Source of the DNA: Desulfomonile tiedjei DSM 6799
Lineage (GTDB): Bacteria > Desulfobacterota > Desulfomonilia > Desulfomonilales > Desulfomonilaceae
NCBI RefSeq assembly: GCF_000266945.1
Contig: NC_018025.1
Span: 1,612,001 to 1,676,000 of the forward strand
DNA length: 64,000 nt
Direction: 5' to 3'
Shown here one piece after another: positions 2,826-28,838 of this stretch; the stretch's first letter is position 1, and every line of letters begins with the position of its first letter. A program made the position numbers and the translations under genes. The notes beneath the pieces are model-generated. The model made no database searches. It was not told where the DNA came from and saw nothing but the letters and a program-made list of their open reading frames with translations.

Positions 2826-3827
2826 ATGAAAAGCTTGGATGCCTCTCGGCTGCAAGCACTACGAAGCCGTGAAATCATACTCGAAACTCTCGAAGATCGC
2901 GTGGTGCTGGATGCTTCCATTCCTGTTGAAGCTTCCCAGGTTGCCTCAGCTCAGGAACAAGCACACGATGACGTGTCAAGCAATGCGGTCGAGCCTCTGG
3001 AAGCGATAAACTGGTTCGACGGACAATGGCACTACTACGGTGATGGATGGTGGTATCAGCGATGGCCGAACAACTGGGATTCCTGGTACCATGGACCGCA
3101 TCAATGGTATGCGCAGGAACTCTCTACAGGCGCATGGTTCTGGTACGACGACGTCGAAAATCGCACATGGGAACCCTGTTGGCAGTGGTACTACGATACT
3201 CAGTGGATTTATAACGACAGCATAGGAACCTGGTACTACACGGACAGCAACCACTCTTTCTGGCATGACATTGCCAGCGACACCTGGCTTAAGCAGTCCG
3301 GCAGCTCATGGATCGCATGGAATCGAGGGGACACCGGAACTCAGGCAGATCAGATCATCGAATACTGGATTCTGCACTACGTGAACGACATCAGAGTTGC
3401 AAACGGCTTACCTGCCTTTGTCTCCAATGCCAATATCGATTGGGTCGGAGAAATCAACACTGACAATATCTGCAATACCCACGTGTTCGCGCATGAAAGC
3501 ACGGCCTTCCCTGCCGGGTGGCAAACCCTTACCGAGCGCTACGCTCAAGTCGGCTGGACAGGCTGGGGTTCAGGCGGCGATGTGGGAGACAATCTCTATG
3601 CCGTTTACTACAATACTATCGGCGATTACAACTGGAACAGTTATTCCGATCTACAGTTGAAAGACATCGCATATGATGTGGTGTACTCTTGGGTTTATGA
3701 CGATGCTGGTAGCAACTGGGGCCACAGAGCCATAATTCTGAACGAGAATAATTGGGATGTGTTCTATGCGGGTGTTGCGGCGCAAAACGGCGTGGTTACT
3801 ATGACATTCTCGCAATACAATCTCTGA
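2826..3827 (+). CDS. Trp-rich LEPR-type surface protein with CAP domain
   Basis: 333-residue protein, start supported by GAGGAGGG at 2813-2820. Residues 22-30 (LEDRVVLDA) form an LEPR-XLL-like motif, known from the N-termini of large secreted or surface proteins. Residues 62-165 are extremely rich in Trp, Tyr, Asn and Asp in short repeats of the type DGWWY and STGAWFWYDD. Residues 175-333 resemble a CAP/SCP (PR-1) domain: an early HVFAHE, then GDNLYA in the place of GENL, and W-GHRAIIL before a final AGVA strand. No classical signal peptide is seen. A paralogous Trp module lies in 27357-28838. Export and wall or sugar binding are inferences; CAP proteins have varied roles. Confidence 0.8.
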   Translation: MKSLDASRLQALRSREIILETLEDRVVLDASIPVEASQVASAQEQAHDDVSSNAVEPLEAINWFDGQWHYYGDGWWYQRWPNNWDSWYHGPHQWYAQELSTGAWFWYDDVENRTWEPCWQWYYDTQWIYNDSIGTWYYTDSNHSFWHDIASDTWLKQSGSSWIAWNRGDTGTQADQIIEYWILHYVNDIRVANGLPAFVSNANIDWVGEINTDNICNTHVFAHESTAFPAGWQTLTERYAQVGWTGWGSGGDVGDNLYAVYYNTIGDYNWNSYSDLQLKDIAYDVVYSWVYDDAGSNWGHRAIILNENNWDVFYAGVAAQNGVVTMTFSQYNL

Positions 3828-4238: not shown

Positions 4239-5441
4239 TTATTTCATTACTTTGGGTTCCCGCCAATCGGTCACGGGTTTCATCGTTCCTGCGGGCACGT
4301 CTGCTTTGTAGATCTTACACTTGTTCTGAGGGGCGTGGCTCGTGGATGTGTACGTAACCGGCGGCATGATTCCCGCCAGATCATAGTTGTTCAAGGTCTC
4401 CAGTGCAGACTTCAGCGATTCCGGGGTCAAATCCGTGCCGGCACGTTTCAGACCCTCTTCGAAGAGCAGCCCGACAGCCGCACCGGAGGTGTACAGCGAA
4501 GTGAGCATCTTCTTGGGATCCCGGTTGTATTTCTTGGCAAGCTCACGGACTTTGGCCATTCCCGGAGAATTGTCTTCCCAGCCACCGACGAAACTCACGC
4601 CATAGTAGTTGTTGGCCGCTGTTTTACATGCATTGATCACCATATCGTCGCAGGACCAGTTGATACCGAACACGGTGGGTTTGTAATCGAATTTCTCTGC
4701 ATCCCTCAGGAAGGTGATAATGGGCGGGACAAGGTTACACGTGACCACGTAATCTACCCCGGCCTTTTTGAGGGCAAGTACCTGGGAACTGGCATCGACT
4801 GTGCCGATATTCAGAACCTGTTCTGCTTCCAGTTTGAGTCCATACTGCTGTGCTCGTTTTCTTGCCGCTTCCAATCCTTTTTTGCCGAACTCGGTTTCCG
4901 CGTACACTACCGCAATCTTGGGATTCTTTGCTTTAAGATCTTCCATGATGTAATCGAACATAATGTCGATCTGGGCTTCGTACGCTGCCCCGAAAATGAA
5001 CATGTACGGTCTGTAGGGATTGTACATTTCCTCTGTAAGAGCGTTGGGAATGTTGGGGACTTTGTATTCCTGAATAAGGTCCATCAATGCGATTGTCTGT
5101 GGAGTTCCTCCGCATGTCACAATTGTGAGCACGTTATCGGTGAAGAGGAGTTTCTTGAATTGCGCGATTGCGTTGGGAGTTTTGAACTGATCGTCCTCCC
5201 AAAAGAGTTCTATCTTGCGCCCGTTTATACCGCCTTTTTCGCTCGCTTGACGAAAGACATCTTCTGTGCCCCAGCCGTAAGGAAGACCCAAAGCGGCGAC
5301 CGGACCCGTTTTCACCATGATCATGCCCATTTTGACACTGTCTTTAGTAACACCTCTGGTTTCGGCGAAGCAGCAGGTGGACAACAGAGCCACCATTGCC
5401 AGCACAGTGCAGAGAATCCCCAACGATTTTCGGTTCAGCAT
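4239..5441 (-). CDS. livK: ABC importer substrate-binding protein (LivK type)
   Basis: 400-residue periplasmic binding protein of the branched-chain amino-acid (HAAT) family. Residues 1-26 form a signal peptide with cleavage likely after CCFA. The mature part starts RGVTKDSVKMGMIMVKTGPVA, a type-I periplasmic fold typical of Leu/Ile/Val and amide binding proteins; the family also includes binders of aromatic and fatty acids. It is the last gene of the minus-strand operon, 40 bp after livM, with GAAGGAGAAGGAAG before its ATG. With an acyl-CoA synthetase in the same operon, the ligand is more likely a carboxylic acid than an amino acid, but that is inference. Confidence 0.9.
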   Translation of the reverse strand: MLNRKSLGILCTVLAMVALLSTCCFAETRGVTKDSVKMGMIMVKTGPVAALGLPYGWGTEDVFRQASEKGGINGRKIELFWEDDQFKTPNAIAQFKKLLFTDNVLTIVTCGGTPQTIALMDLIQEYKVPNIPNALTEEMYNPYRPYMFIFGAAYEAQIDIMFDYIMEDLKAKNPKIAVVYAETEFGKKGLEAARKRAQQYGLKLEAEQVLNIGTVDASSQVLALKKAGVDYVVTCNLVPPIITFLRDAEKFDYKPTVFGINWSCDDMVINACKTAANNYYGVSFVGGWEDNSPGMAKVRELAKKYNRDPKKMLTSLYTSGAAVGLLFEEGLKRAGTDLTPESLKSALETLNNYDLAGIMPPVTYTSTSHAPQNKCKIYKADVPAGTMKPVTDWREPKVMK

Positions 5442-10924: not shown

Positions 10925-11108
10925 GGCTTTACGTTCCGGGTCGATTATAGCAGTTGACGTAATTTCTAACCATTTGGACACCCTACCATTTATACGGAAC
11001 GGTAGGGCCCGGCGTCCCTTGTATGTTTCTGTCCATGAAGTACTGAATCTCTGGAACCGGTACCGAGCTGAGGGGAGGGGCTGATACTGGATCAATGATA
11101 CGAGGTAC

Positions 11109-11329
11109 TTCAAAAAATAGGACTCTTGGTTGCCAAGATATAAGAGTCCTGATAGAGGGGGGATGCACGTCTGTCAGACTCTCTGCAGGAGTCGGGCAGA
11201 GGCACCGGTAGATCGTTCGTCCCTTGGTCCTCTGAGACTGCCCGGCAGCTGGATCACCGGAGGCCTTCGTGTAAAAAGCCCGAACAGTCGCCTGGACTCG
11301 TTGAGAAGTCCGTATCCACAAGGGTGGGA
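11109..11329 (+). ncRNA. Predicted bridge RNA of IS110 copy 2
   Basis: Sequence identical to the copy-1 bridge RNA. The putative guides are at 11218-11224 (CGTCCCT, left target), 11240-11248 (GCCCGGCAG, right target), 11284-11291 (ACAGTCGC, right IS end) and 11318-11322 (ACAAG, left IS end). For this insertion the right-target guide pairs perfectly over 9 nt, because the flank reads CTGCCGGGC. The last guide runs into the purine-rich ribosome-binding site of the transposase. Confidence 0.75.
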
Positions 11330-11337
11330 TGTTACAC

Positions 11338-12279
11338 ATGCATGAAGAAGTTTTTGTTGGCATAGATATCTCTAAAGATCAGTTGGATGCGCATGTGCTG
11401 CCAAAAGGCATGCACACCACCGTCAAGAATGACACTCAAGGCATCGACTCGCTGATTGAGATCCTCCACGCAGAGACCCCCATGGTAATCGTGATGGAAG
11501 CCACCGGAGGCTACGAGATAACCGTTGCGGCCCAGTTAGGTCTCGCCGGCCTGCCGATCGCTGTCGTCAACCCTGGTCAGGTGCGGGACTTTGCCAAAGG
11601 CATCGGAAAACTCGCCAAGACAGACGCCATCGATGCTTATGTGCTGGCACGCTTTGCCCAAACGGTTAGGCCCATACCGAAGCCGCTGCCAACGGAGGAC
11701 GAAAAGCAAATCAAGGAACTCGTAACACGTCGAAAGCAGCTTGTTGATTTGCGTGCATCAGAAAAGAATCGCCTCCATCGAGCCCGTTCCAATCGCGTGC
11801 AGCGCAGCATTCAAACGGTCATAGCAGCCCTAGATAAGGAAATCGAAGACATCGATAAAGATGTCGATGACCTTATCAGGAAATCGCCTCTGTGGCGTGA
11901 AACAGAGGAACTCCTCCGAACCTTCAAAGGCGTGGGCCCCATAACTGCCAGAGTGCTCATGGCAAAACTGCCCGAACTGGGACATGTCAGCCGTCATGAA
12001 ATCAGTCGCCTCGTCGGCCTGGCGCCTCTCAACAAAGACAGCGGAAAGAAGAAAGGCAAGCGCGAGATTTCGGGTGGACGGGCGGATGTACGCTCAACCC
12101 TGTATATGGCTGCAGTCGCGGCCATAACGTCCAATGTAGTCATCAAGCCTTTCTATCAACGCCTCATTGAGGCTGGAAAACCTTTCAAGGTTGCCATCAC
12201 GGCTTGTATGCGTAAGATGATCGTCATCCTAAACGCAATGCTCAAGAAAAAACAGCCTTTCCAGGTAGTTTTTCCTTGA
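11338..12279 (+). CDS. IS110-family transposase
   Basis: About 313-residue DEDD/serine recombinase. The N-terminal RuvC-like domain shows FVGIDISKDQLD, VIVMEATGGYE and KTDAIDAYVLARFA, the acidic residues expected of the IS110 DEDD site. A coiled coil follows (about residues 130-195). The C-terminal Transposase_20 domain has FKGVGPITARVLMAKLPELG, LVGLAPLNKDSG and REISGGRADVRSTLYMAA, where the catalytic serine of this family lies. The ATG at 11338 is preferred because AAGGGTGGG lies 9 bases upstream; 11329 is an alternative. The enzyme would use the adjacent bridge RNA to choose its target. Confidence 0.95.
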   Translation: MHEEVFVGIDISKDQLDAHVLPKGMHTTVKNDTQGIDSLIEILHAETPMVIVMEATGGYEITVAAQLGLAGLPIAVVNPGQVRDFAKGIGKLAKTDAIDAYVLARFAQTVRPIPKPLPTEDEKQIKELVTRRKQLVDLRASEKNRLHRARSNRVQRSIQTVIAALDKEIEDIDKDVDDLIRKSPLWRETEELLRTFKGVGPITARVLMAKLPELGHVSRHEISRLVGLAPLNKDSGKKKGKREISGGRADVRSTLYMAAVAAITSNVVIKPFYQRLIEAGKPFKVAITACMRKMIVILNAMLKKKQPFQVVFP

Positions 12280-26759: not shown

Positions 26760-27356
26760 GCGCTTTCGAAGGATTCTGCAAAAAAATTCTTCGTTGGAAC
26801 GCGAGGTAAATTATTGGTGTAGTCGTAGTCGCAAAATCGGACAAACGGCATGCAAAGCCCAACGAATCGTTCCGATTTTTGCACTGCCTCGAACTTAGCC
26901 GTAGTTTGGAATGAGCAGCTCTGTTACAGACTCTCGCACGAAGTATCTTTCGTCGATGAGTAACGCGTTTTCACGTGCTCGATTCTTGACCGTCCGTAAA
27001 GATCTCCGATCCGTTGTTCTCCGACAGATGATCTCTGCGGTTCCTCGCTTCGCGTTGTCTTCAGCCTTGTGGTAGGCCTAATCCGGATAGCTGAAGAGGA
27101 TCAGTCAGTATCTCGCCCGATGATCTCGGAACGCCGACTCGCTCTTGCTCTGAGTTCAATTTGTCTTTATTTTCAGAATGCCTGAGAAAATGCTTGCACA
27201 CGTAATCGAAAAAAAATTGACTCCAGCCCGTTTTTCGGTATTCGATTATGATTCATGTTTGCAATTCTGAATTGGAAACTGACTGCCGCTATCGATGCCC
27301 ATCCATGCGGATTATGGAGAAGCCCAATTCAATGAACCAACAACAGAGGGGGAATT
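26760..27356. other. Intergenic region before second LEPR protein
   Basis: About 600 bp between divergent genes. No MITE or C/G-tract repeat and no credible ORF. AT-rich stretches at 27165-27260 probably hold the promoter of the Trp-rich protein gene. Nothing more specific can be called. Confidence 0.4.
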
Positions 27357-28838
27357 ATGTTCGTGAGAGAAATGGTTTTAGAGCAACTTGAGGAGAGAAT
27401 CGTTCTTGATGGCGCGGTTGCCAATGCGCATGACGTCCAGGACCAAACGTCTCATACCGATTTGGTGGACAGCCTCGGCTGGATCTATGTCGAGAATGAT
27501 TGGTGGTTTAATGATGATGGGTCTGGCTGGTGGTTTAACCAAAACACTGGCTGGTGGTGGAATCAAAATGATGAATGGTGGTTCAAGAACGACAAAGGTT
27601 TTGATTACTGGTATCACGGGGTTCATCAGTATTGGGCCGAAGAGAATTCAACAGGTGCCTGGTTCTGGTGGGACGATGTGAATGACCACACTTGGGAAGC
27701 CGCGTTTAGCTGGTCTTACGACTGGGATAATCGGATGTGGTGCTGGAATGACTGGAATGGAAGCCAATATTTCAGAGATTCATCGCACTATTTTTACCAA
27801 TCACATGATTCATGTCAGATTCATGTAAATCTAAACGGTCAATGGTATGAAAATCCGGAAGGACTACCGACGAATATAGATTTATATGATGGTAATTGGC
27901 ACCAAATGGATGCTGTTGAATCATTCAGATACGGGAATCATTACGGACATTGGGGGTATGAATGGGGATCCAGGATAAATGGTCAACTGTATAGAGATGT
28001 CATATATTATCCTGACGAATCCAATGACCATGGGTATAGCTATATTTATTATGTTTCTAACGGGCAAATAATAGGAACTTACCTTTATGTCTCAGACGAT
28101 GTGGACTATTTGGGAAATGGGAAATTTCTGGCCATTAGCATTGAAGGTCATACAGCCACGTGCAAATTATGGGATGTTTCTGTCAGACCAGAAAGTGCCA
28201 GTGATGATAGATTCTTATTGGAATGGACCGGCTACAACATGCTATCGGATTTTGATTATTTTGATGATCCTCTTAGGGTTCTGTTCATAAACACGACACA
28301 AGAAAGTTCAAATTATAAAATAAGCTACTTGGAAAATAACACTATCGTTTTCAAGTACTGGGACAGCAGTGATTTCACAATCGGCGAACTGGTATCGGAT
28401 TTGCGGTCGCTCTCTCAGGCTTTTGCTCGCCAAATCGACACAGTAGCAATTGATGATCATGGGTATTACAATGTTATAAAAATTGGAGACGATTACGTTT
28501 CTTATGGACAACCACAAACAGGATCAGGCTGGACTTCTCGGCTTGTTACTGAATATGAAAGTGCCTTTCGCGAATGGGGTAGTCTTATGTCTTCGGACGG
28601 CCAGATCCAGTTTTATAACTGCTACGTGGCAGGTGGTTCGGGAGATATTGGCGCATGGAGCAAACAATTGCTGTCGACAATATCTCAATATACAAATGCT
28701 GACGTGTTCGCTAATGACGATCTCGCTAAAGTTGTCTTTGATTCTAATACGGGGGCATTGGTGTCTGTCGAAAATTGGGACGCTGACTGGAGATCAAACA
28801 CCAGCCTCACATTTGACTCTCTTTACCTTTGGGCATAA
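27357..28838 (+). CDS. Trp-rich LEPR-type surface protein, second copy
   Basis: 493 residues, with GAGGGGGAATT before the ATG. The N-terminal LEPR-XLL-like motif is LEERIVLDGA (residues 11-20). Residues 43-140 hold about twenty tryptophans in short repeats of the type DWWFNDDGSGWWF and TGWWWNQ. The block YWYHGVHQYWAEENSTGAW aligns with YHGPHQWYAQELSTGAW of the protein at 2826-3827, so the two share a module of about 70 residues. The C-terminal 330 residues are unlike that protein, lack a CAP domain and match nothing I recognise. Codon use is more AT-rich than in its neighbours, suggesting acquisition. Export and glycan binding are inferences. Confidence 0.78.
   Translation: MFVREMVLEQLEERIVLDGAVANAHDVQDQTSHTDLVDSLGWIYVENDWWFNDDGSGWWFNQNTGWWWNQNDEWWFKNDKGFDYWYHGVHQYWAEENSTGAWFWWDDVNDHTWEAAFSWSYDWDNRMWCWNDWNGSQYFRDSSHYFYQSHDSCQIHVNLNGQWYENPEGLPTNIDLYDGNWHQMDAVESFRYGNHYGHWGYEWGSRINGQLYRDVIYYPDESNDHGYSYIYYVSNGQIIGTYLYVSDDVDYLGNGKFLAISIEGHTATCKLWDVSVRPESASDDRFLLEWTGYNMLSDFDYFDDPLRVLFINTTQESSNYKISYLENNTIVFKYWDSSDFTIGELVSDLRSLSQAFARQIDTVAIDDHGYYNVIKIGDDYVSYGQPQTGSGWTSRLVTEYESAFREWGSLMSSDGQIQFYNCYVAGGSGDIGAWSKQLLSTISQYTNADVFANDDLAKVVFDSNTGALVSVENWDADWRSNTSLTFDSLYLWA

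Follow-up and report, generated by a model that had tools for sequence, protein, structure and literature searches.

A tryptophan-rich CAP protein with an LEPR-type leader in Desulfomonile tiedjei and a candidate M50/HlyD machine for its export

Results

The window, a stretch of 64,000 nucleotides from the genome of Desulfomonile tiedjei (G000; 6.5 Mb in 2 contigs), carries on its forward strand an open reading frame at 2826–3827, stop codon included, that encodes a protein of 333 residues, referred to here as P0001. A ribosome-binding-site-like sequence read directly from the DNA, GAGGAGGG (2812–2819, + strand), lies 6 nt upstream of the ATG, and an in-frame stop stands four codons before it (LLLPY*GGTRMKS). 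Its N-terminal part holds an LEPR-like segment (LETLEDRVVLDAS); behind it come an acidic linker, then a stretch rich in Trp and Tyr and, at the C-terminus, a CAP domain. On the + strand, the leader itself (REIILETLEDRVVLDAS, residues 15–31) is encoded at 2868–2918, the linker (residues 32–60, read from the translation) at 2919–3005, the Trp-rich module (residues 61–166, placed by profile match and predicted by a low-confidence model to contain short β-strands) at 3006–3323, and the CAP domain (residues 173–333) at 3342–3824. There are 28 Trp in the full protein, and 19 Trp and 11 Tyr fall among the 110 residues from 61 to 170. The first-pass annotation, which had described a 333-residue protein with an LEPR-like N-terminus, Trp/Tyr repeats and a CAP domain, is confirmed in this architecture by translation and profile scans. 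It had also held that there is no classical signal peptide, and this is borne out: averaged over 15 residues, hydropathy at the N-terminus peaks at 1.12, whereas it reaches 2.12 in a relative with a Sec-type signal, and by hydropathy no hydrophobic signal peptide is present there. Because the in-frame stop lies only four codons upstream, none has been overlooked.

Convergent with P0001 is a gene at 4239–5441 (− strand) for what we take, from its sequence, to be a livK-like binding protein of a branched-chain amino acid ABC transporter, and this gene serves as a synteny anchor. In G004, a genome of the same family, a protein of 724 residues convergent with the same livK-like gene combines an LEPR segment and DUF4347 with a Trp/Tyr repeat of another kind and with a CAP domain that is 45% identical to that of P0001 over 189 residues. 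Its repeats give no BLASTP match to the Trp module of P0001; leader, aromatic repeats and CAP domain therefore stay together although the repeats differ. At that place G003, G005 and G015 have, in our own reading, an enoyl-CoA-hydratase-like gene instead. Two copies of an insertion sequence, presumably of the IS110-like family, flank P0001 and the liv genes at 1252–2529 and 11001–12279, and a one-base offset between sampled stretches fits a split of the first copy into two open reading frames. We set aside a reading of P0001 as mobile cargo carried between the two copies, because the LEPR-CAP/livK convergent pair is also found in G004.

The CAP domain of P0001 is, by its sequence scores, weak but real. 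When the C-terminal 164 residues are scanned in isolation they pass the Pfam CAP (PF00188) gathering score (22.0 versus 21.1 bits); the full-length protein has no CAP match in Pfam at E ≤ 1. TIGR04320 matches at E 9.8e-8, yet far below its cut-off. Two His, which may be the CAP cavity residues, are common in the alignment to P0001, a clear CAP protein of G000 and the syntenic G004 protein. Against the PDB the domain alone gave nothing useful and a 3-row profile reached GAPR-1 at E 0.039, while a pattern-based scan of genome_contigs with a CAP alignment, of a kind that detects close relatives only, found none. P0001 is thus like the CAP superfamily (PF00188; TIGR04320) in that its isolated C-terminus exceeds the Pfam cut-off, but it does so barely, has Trp-rich insertions and is fused to a leader and a Trp module.

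P0001 is not a one-off, since 21 open reading frames of G000 (224–4332 residues) combine the same leader and Trp module with differing C-termini; searching with a module profile of 20 rows yields 35 domain matches. P0001, itself a member of that profile, matches it at E 9.4e-26 over positions 15–117 of 119, and its module is 29–49% identical to those of 19 paralogues. Three Trp are invariant across 20 aligned copies, and ten more columns are nearly so. The first-pass annotation was only partly supported overall, for alongside the architecture it had singled out the small size as exceptional for an LEPR protein. This does not hold, because the LEPR-Trp proteins of G000 span 224–1643 residues, with two more above 4300.

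Domain scans of these proteins found cadherin/Ig-like C-termini (L009, L013, L017–L020), DUF4347 (L011, L012, L021, L048 below cut-off, and a second LEPR-Trp protein of the window), DUF5050 or Kelch-like domains (L009, L012, L015), a polysaccharide deacetylase (L018), FG-GAP (L019), RTX (L025), the CAP domain of P0001 and a thaumatin-like match below cut-off (L023); both L010 proteins, L014, L016 and L054 have no recognised C-terminal domain. The second LEPR-Trp protein of the window lies at 27357–28838 or, with slightly different ends, 27336–28835 (+ strand), and its DUF4347 domain matches at E 1.7e-7. An identical LEPR-Trp protein of 426 residues is encoded twice, at L023 (G000:C1:5109578) and L024 (6421791). 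Translations of L011, L048, L055 and L057 suggest that a His-Gly pair and a Cys further along are conserved in their DUF4347-like domains, which is reminiscent of caspase-like peptidases.

In searches of Pfam and the PDB the module matches no well-described family, so the refuting condition that the first-pass annotation had set for it did not arise. The only Pfam match is to OCRE, in 3 of 20 members and at a best E of 0.27, which is not significant, and the PDB search returned the RBM10 OCRE at E 0.0095, likewise not significant. Like OCRE (PF17780; RBM5/RBM10), with its short aromatic repeats spaced about 8–9 residues apart, the module has a Trp spacing that peaks near 9 residues. This peak is significant across 20 members (0 of 300 shuffles), a figure that is optimistic because the sequences are related; in P0001 alone the periodicity is not significant (238 of 300 shuffles reach it). 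The module might accordingly be read as an OCRE-like protein-interaction repeat or a self-assembly element and not as a sugar binder, OCRE being the only family with any match at all. We consider this rather doubtful: the scores lie below any usual threshold and may be explained by shared aromatic octamers. The context also differs from that of OCRE in being bacterial, with export proposed. AlphaFold2 modelling of P0001 alone gave a mean pLDDT of 39 with 10 low-confidence strands in the module, and a Foldseek search with this model found no match at E ≤ 0.001. Modelled together with the second copy from the window, the module reached a pLDDT of 55, again with short β-strands at low confidence. 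Structure prediction, which the first-pass annotation had proposed as a check, hence suggests short β-strands, but because of the low pLDDT we claim no fold for the module.

No match to the Trp module occurs in 394 other genomes of the phylum, and the sole match among 98 other relatives is a weak one (E 9.7e-4) in G001, of the same genus. Pattern-based wider scans, which detect close relatives only, gave no relative in genome_contigs (where records near G000 may be left out), none in viral_contigs and, with P0001 as query, none in plasmids. From these searches the module appears to be an undescribed repeat family, seemingly confined to one lineage. The G001 protein, L057 (29–1687, − strand), has a Sec-type signal, recognised by reading and hydropathy, in place of the LEPR leader, followed by aromatic repeats and a C-terminal domain that matches that of L011 at E 5e-25. 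Homology between its repeats and the Trp module is marginal at the E value given above. Because L057 combines a Sec-type signal with an L011-type C-terminal domain, proteins of this kind are probably exported in this close relative.

The leader of P0001 is borderline against the LEPR-XLL model NF012209, scoring 15.3 bits in the protein scan and 19.8 bits in the genome scan around a curated cut-off of 17. It resembles LEPR-XLL in its N-terminal place, its LExLExRxxL pattern and its occurrence at the head of adhesin-like proteins, and differs in having Asp for the Pro of LEPR, in the borderline score and in heading a protein of only 333 residues; in the genome scan of the phylum, LEPR matches include very large open reading frames of up to 15,080 codons. 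The motif begins about 19 residues from the Met, close to the N-terminus. The E, L, E, R and L of the leader are invariant in 20 aligned paralogues, and the translations have E-x-L-E-x-R upstream of the Trp module in all 21 module-bearing frames of G000, with four further frames (L049, L051, L052, L053) carrying the motif and no Trp module. Were the leader a chance resemblance, P0001 could be cytoplasmic, as its borderline score and want of a classical signal peptide would allow; the recurrence of the motif in 21 of 21 frames, and family C-termini that include adhesin-, propeller- and RTX-type domains, make this very improbable. We regard the LEPR segment as quite likely an export signal.

The unexplored export route that had been suggested for P0001 is plausible, the candidate being a gene cassette that adjoins LEPR genes. 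In G005, genes encoding HlyD-type adaptors, an OEP channel and a 726-residue fusion of an M50 protease to HlyD share a row with an LEPR gene; the cassette parts are the M50-protease/HlyD fusion, a GAF/HlyD protein, HlyD and a TolC-type OEP. The fusion is found in 11 of 18 family genomes and twice in G000, where both copies lie beside GAF/HlyD. Among the 26 M50/HlyD sites of the 18 genomes, 10 have a curated LEPR match no more than 16 kb away on their own contig, where 0.67 would be expected and the maximum in 200,000 simulations was 6, with the 16 kb radius having been chosen after looking at the data. This count covers curated matches only; the regex set adds L138 and L140 and lacks L154. The other 16 sites have no curated match within that distance, some because contigs end. 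By a regular expression that was widened after looking, the narrower first version having missed several leaders, an LEPR gene lies in the fetched flank of 11 of 21 fetched cassettes, and five more end, in our own reading, in a giant open-ended frame; among 219 shuffled N-termini the motif did not appear once. One copy of M50/HlyD in G000, with its GAF/HlyD, is followed about 3 kb further on by the LEPR-Trp gene L021. The fetched locus of the second G000 copy has no LEPR gene in view, P0001 itself does not adjoin any cassette, and G011, G015 and G017 have LEPR matches at E ≤ 0.5 and no M50/HlyD. A small DUF3467 gene (L138:9037–9438, + strand) directly precedes an M50/HlyD fusion in G000.

Across 395 genomes of the phylum, M50/HlyD occurs in 22, LEPR (E ≤ 0.1) in 42 and both in 18 (Fisher p 3.5e-16, uncorrected for relatedness); this p overstates independence, given the kinship among the genomes and the shortness of the LEPR model, and the E thresholds were chosen after looking at the data. 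At E ≤ 0.01, 13 of 16 LEPR genomes have the fusion (G121, G129 and G172 do not), and all eight LEPR matches below E 1e-6 sit in genomes with it. Four fusion genomes (G056, G128, G312, G414) have no LEPR match. Outside the family, an LEPR frame adjoins the cassette in 9 of 15 fetched loci, with the N-terminus in view in four (L213–L216) and five more placed by coordinates. A SecA-like frame of about 660–760 codons is present in 9 of these 15 loci, and an NCBIfam scan confirmed the likeness of one such frame to SecA, at a score under the SecA cut-off. SecA was counted once in each of 15 of the 18 family genomes, twice in G017 and not at all in two; the extra SecA frame of G017 is partial, and that genome lacks the fusion. 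The notion that a secondary SecA powers export in G000 is not supported, as G000 has one SecA only.

The M50/HlyD fusion has HExxH in 21 of 21 cases, and its front half resembles RiPP-type intramembrane proteases, with matches to daptide_HExxH at E 1.6e-44 and 9e-43 that stay under its cut-off. Its small N-terminal domain matches PqqD weakly, in 3 of 21 members (best E 0.0056), and has no PqqD match in the PDB. Leader divergence tracks M50/HlyD divergence (r 0.43–0.53, p 0.003–0.006, 12 pairs). A specific co-variation of the PqqD-like domain with the leader was rejected as inseparable from co-inheritance, which suffices because the protease core correlates with the leader at least as well as the N-terminal domain does. 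The invariant active site and the likeness to RiPP proteases would also fit a different role for the LEPR segment, that of a site for retention or processing, where M50 would cut to release surface proteins exported another way. This is improbable, given that the N-terminus of P0001 has no hydrophobic stretch resembling a membrane anchor and no other export signal was seen in it. Removal of an export leader by the M50 protease is a tentative proposal, less secure than export itself.

Discussion

The proposed link between the LEPR leader and the M50/HlyD machine is well supported by gene neighbourhood and co-occurrence. As LEPR genes often adjoin the cassette, the leader may be the address label of the machine, and that the export signal serves this machine is, in our judgement, reasonably probable. 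In the mechanism we propose, an N-terminal segment of the form R-x-x-x-L-E-x-L-E-x-R-[IV]-V-L-D-[GA] would mark proteins for export, as a leader read by a machine that spans the envelope. The inner-membrane part would be the M50-metalloprotease/HlyD fusion with its small N-terminal domain; its partners in the conduit would be the GAF/HlyD and HlyD adaptors and an outer-membrane channel of TolC type, and the leader may be cut off at the M50 site. At the surface, the Trp module would act as a β-repeat that keeps the 21 proteins in place, most likely by stacking of aromatic rings on a glycan of Desulfomonile tiedjei, and the CAP domain would be the working end of P0001.

HlyD and OEP parts also belong to type I systems, one LEPR-Trp protein (L025) has RTX repeats, and a giant LEPR protein of Vibrio with C-terminal RTX is reported (PMC10868602). 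LEPR proteins could on these grounds be ordinary type I substrates whose C-terminal signal is read by an ABC exporter, with LEPR as a retention or assembly element. We think this unlikely, as RTX repeats were found in just 1 of 20 distinct LEPR-Trp proteins scanned and the smallest of these proteins, of 224 and 319 residues, have no Pfam domain. Among the cassette genes identified here there is none for an ABC protein.

Export through the M50/HlyD machine would instead connect the LEPR proteins to the locus described by Kamneva, Poudel and Ward in 2015, in which a secondary SecA_DEAD, Peptidase_M50, GAF-HlyD and HlyD occur together and whose broader role was called 'completely unknown' (PMC4452313). 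In the part of that article available, the locus is like the present cassette in bringing together M50/HlyD, GAF/HlyD, HlyD and OEP genes, and no ABC gene is reported. It differs in its secondary SecA, which G000, with a single SecA, does not have, and in that LEPR proteins are proposed as substrates only here; the word LEPR is absent from its main text. In searches of an open-access library, one of them swamped by leptin-receptor papers, we recognised no paper tying LEPR to the M50/HlyD locus.

In the choline- or cell-wall-binding repeat proteins of Gram-positive bacteria, an aromatic repeat module is shared among different effector domains. The Trp module likewise recurs as one aromatic module in many proteins with different effector domains, but it has no Pfam match and lies on the N-terminal side, and the OEP neighbours suggest that the bacterium here has two membranes. 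A surface-anchor role for the module, suggested by its being common to many C-termini and by this analogy, is conceivable but far from assured. Desulfomonile is reported to have a cell-wall 'collar' (PMC7773648), and this is a possible place for LEPR-Trp surface proteins.

That P0001 is exported we infer from the gene neighbourhood of LEPR genes and from the related protein with a Sec-type signal, both of which support it. The fuller reading, in which P0001 is a cell-surface CAP protein that leaves by way of its LEPR leader and the M50/HlyD machine and is held by a Trp surface module, has in our view about an even chance of being right. More speculatively, LEPR-XLL would in general be the export leader of a machine distinct from ABC type I systems: a PqqD/RRE-like domain on M50/HlyD would bind the leader, the protease would remove it, and the GAF/HlyD, HlyD and TolC-type parts, with the SecA-like ATPase where present, would export proteins of 224 to about 15,000 residues, the Trp module being a new lineage-specific aromatic surface anchor in 21 of them in this one genome. 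Taken together, these propositions are tentative and somewhat less likely than not.

The lasting value of the analysis is the link from LEPR to the machine and a new orphan repeat family. LEPR-XLL heads very large open reading frames, and the SecA/M50/HlyD locus of 2015 had no named role; the proposed link would give each a testable partner, a leader for reporter fusion and a machine for deletion. The Trp module, seemingly of one lineage yet present in 21 open reading frames, may offer a handle on the surface of that organism.
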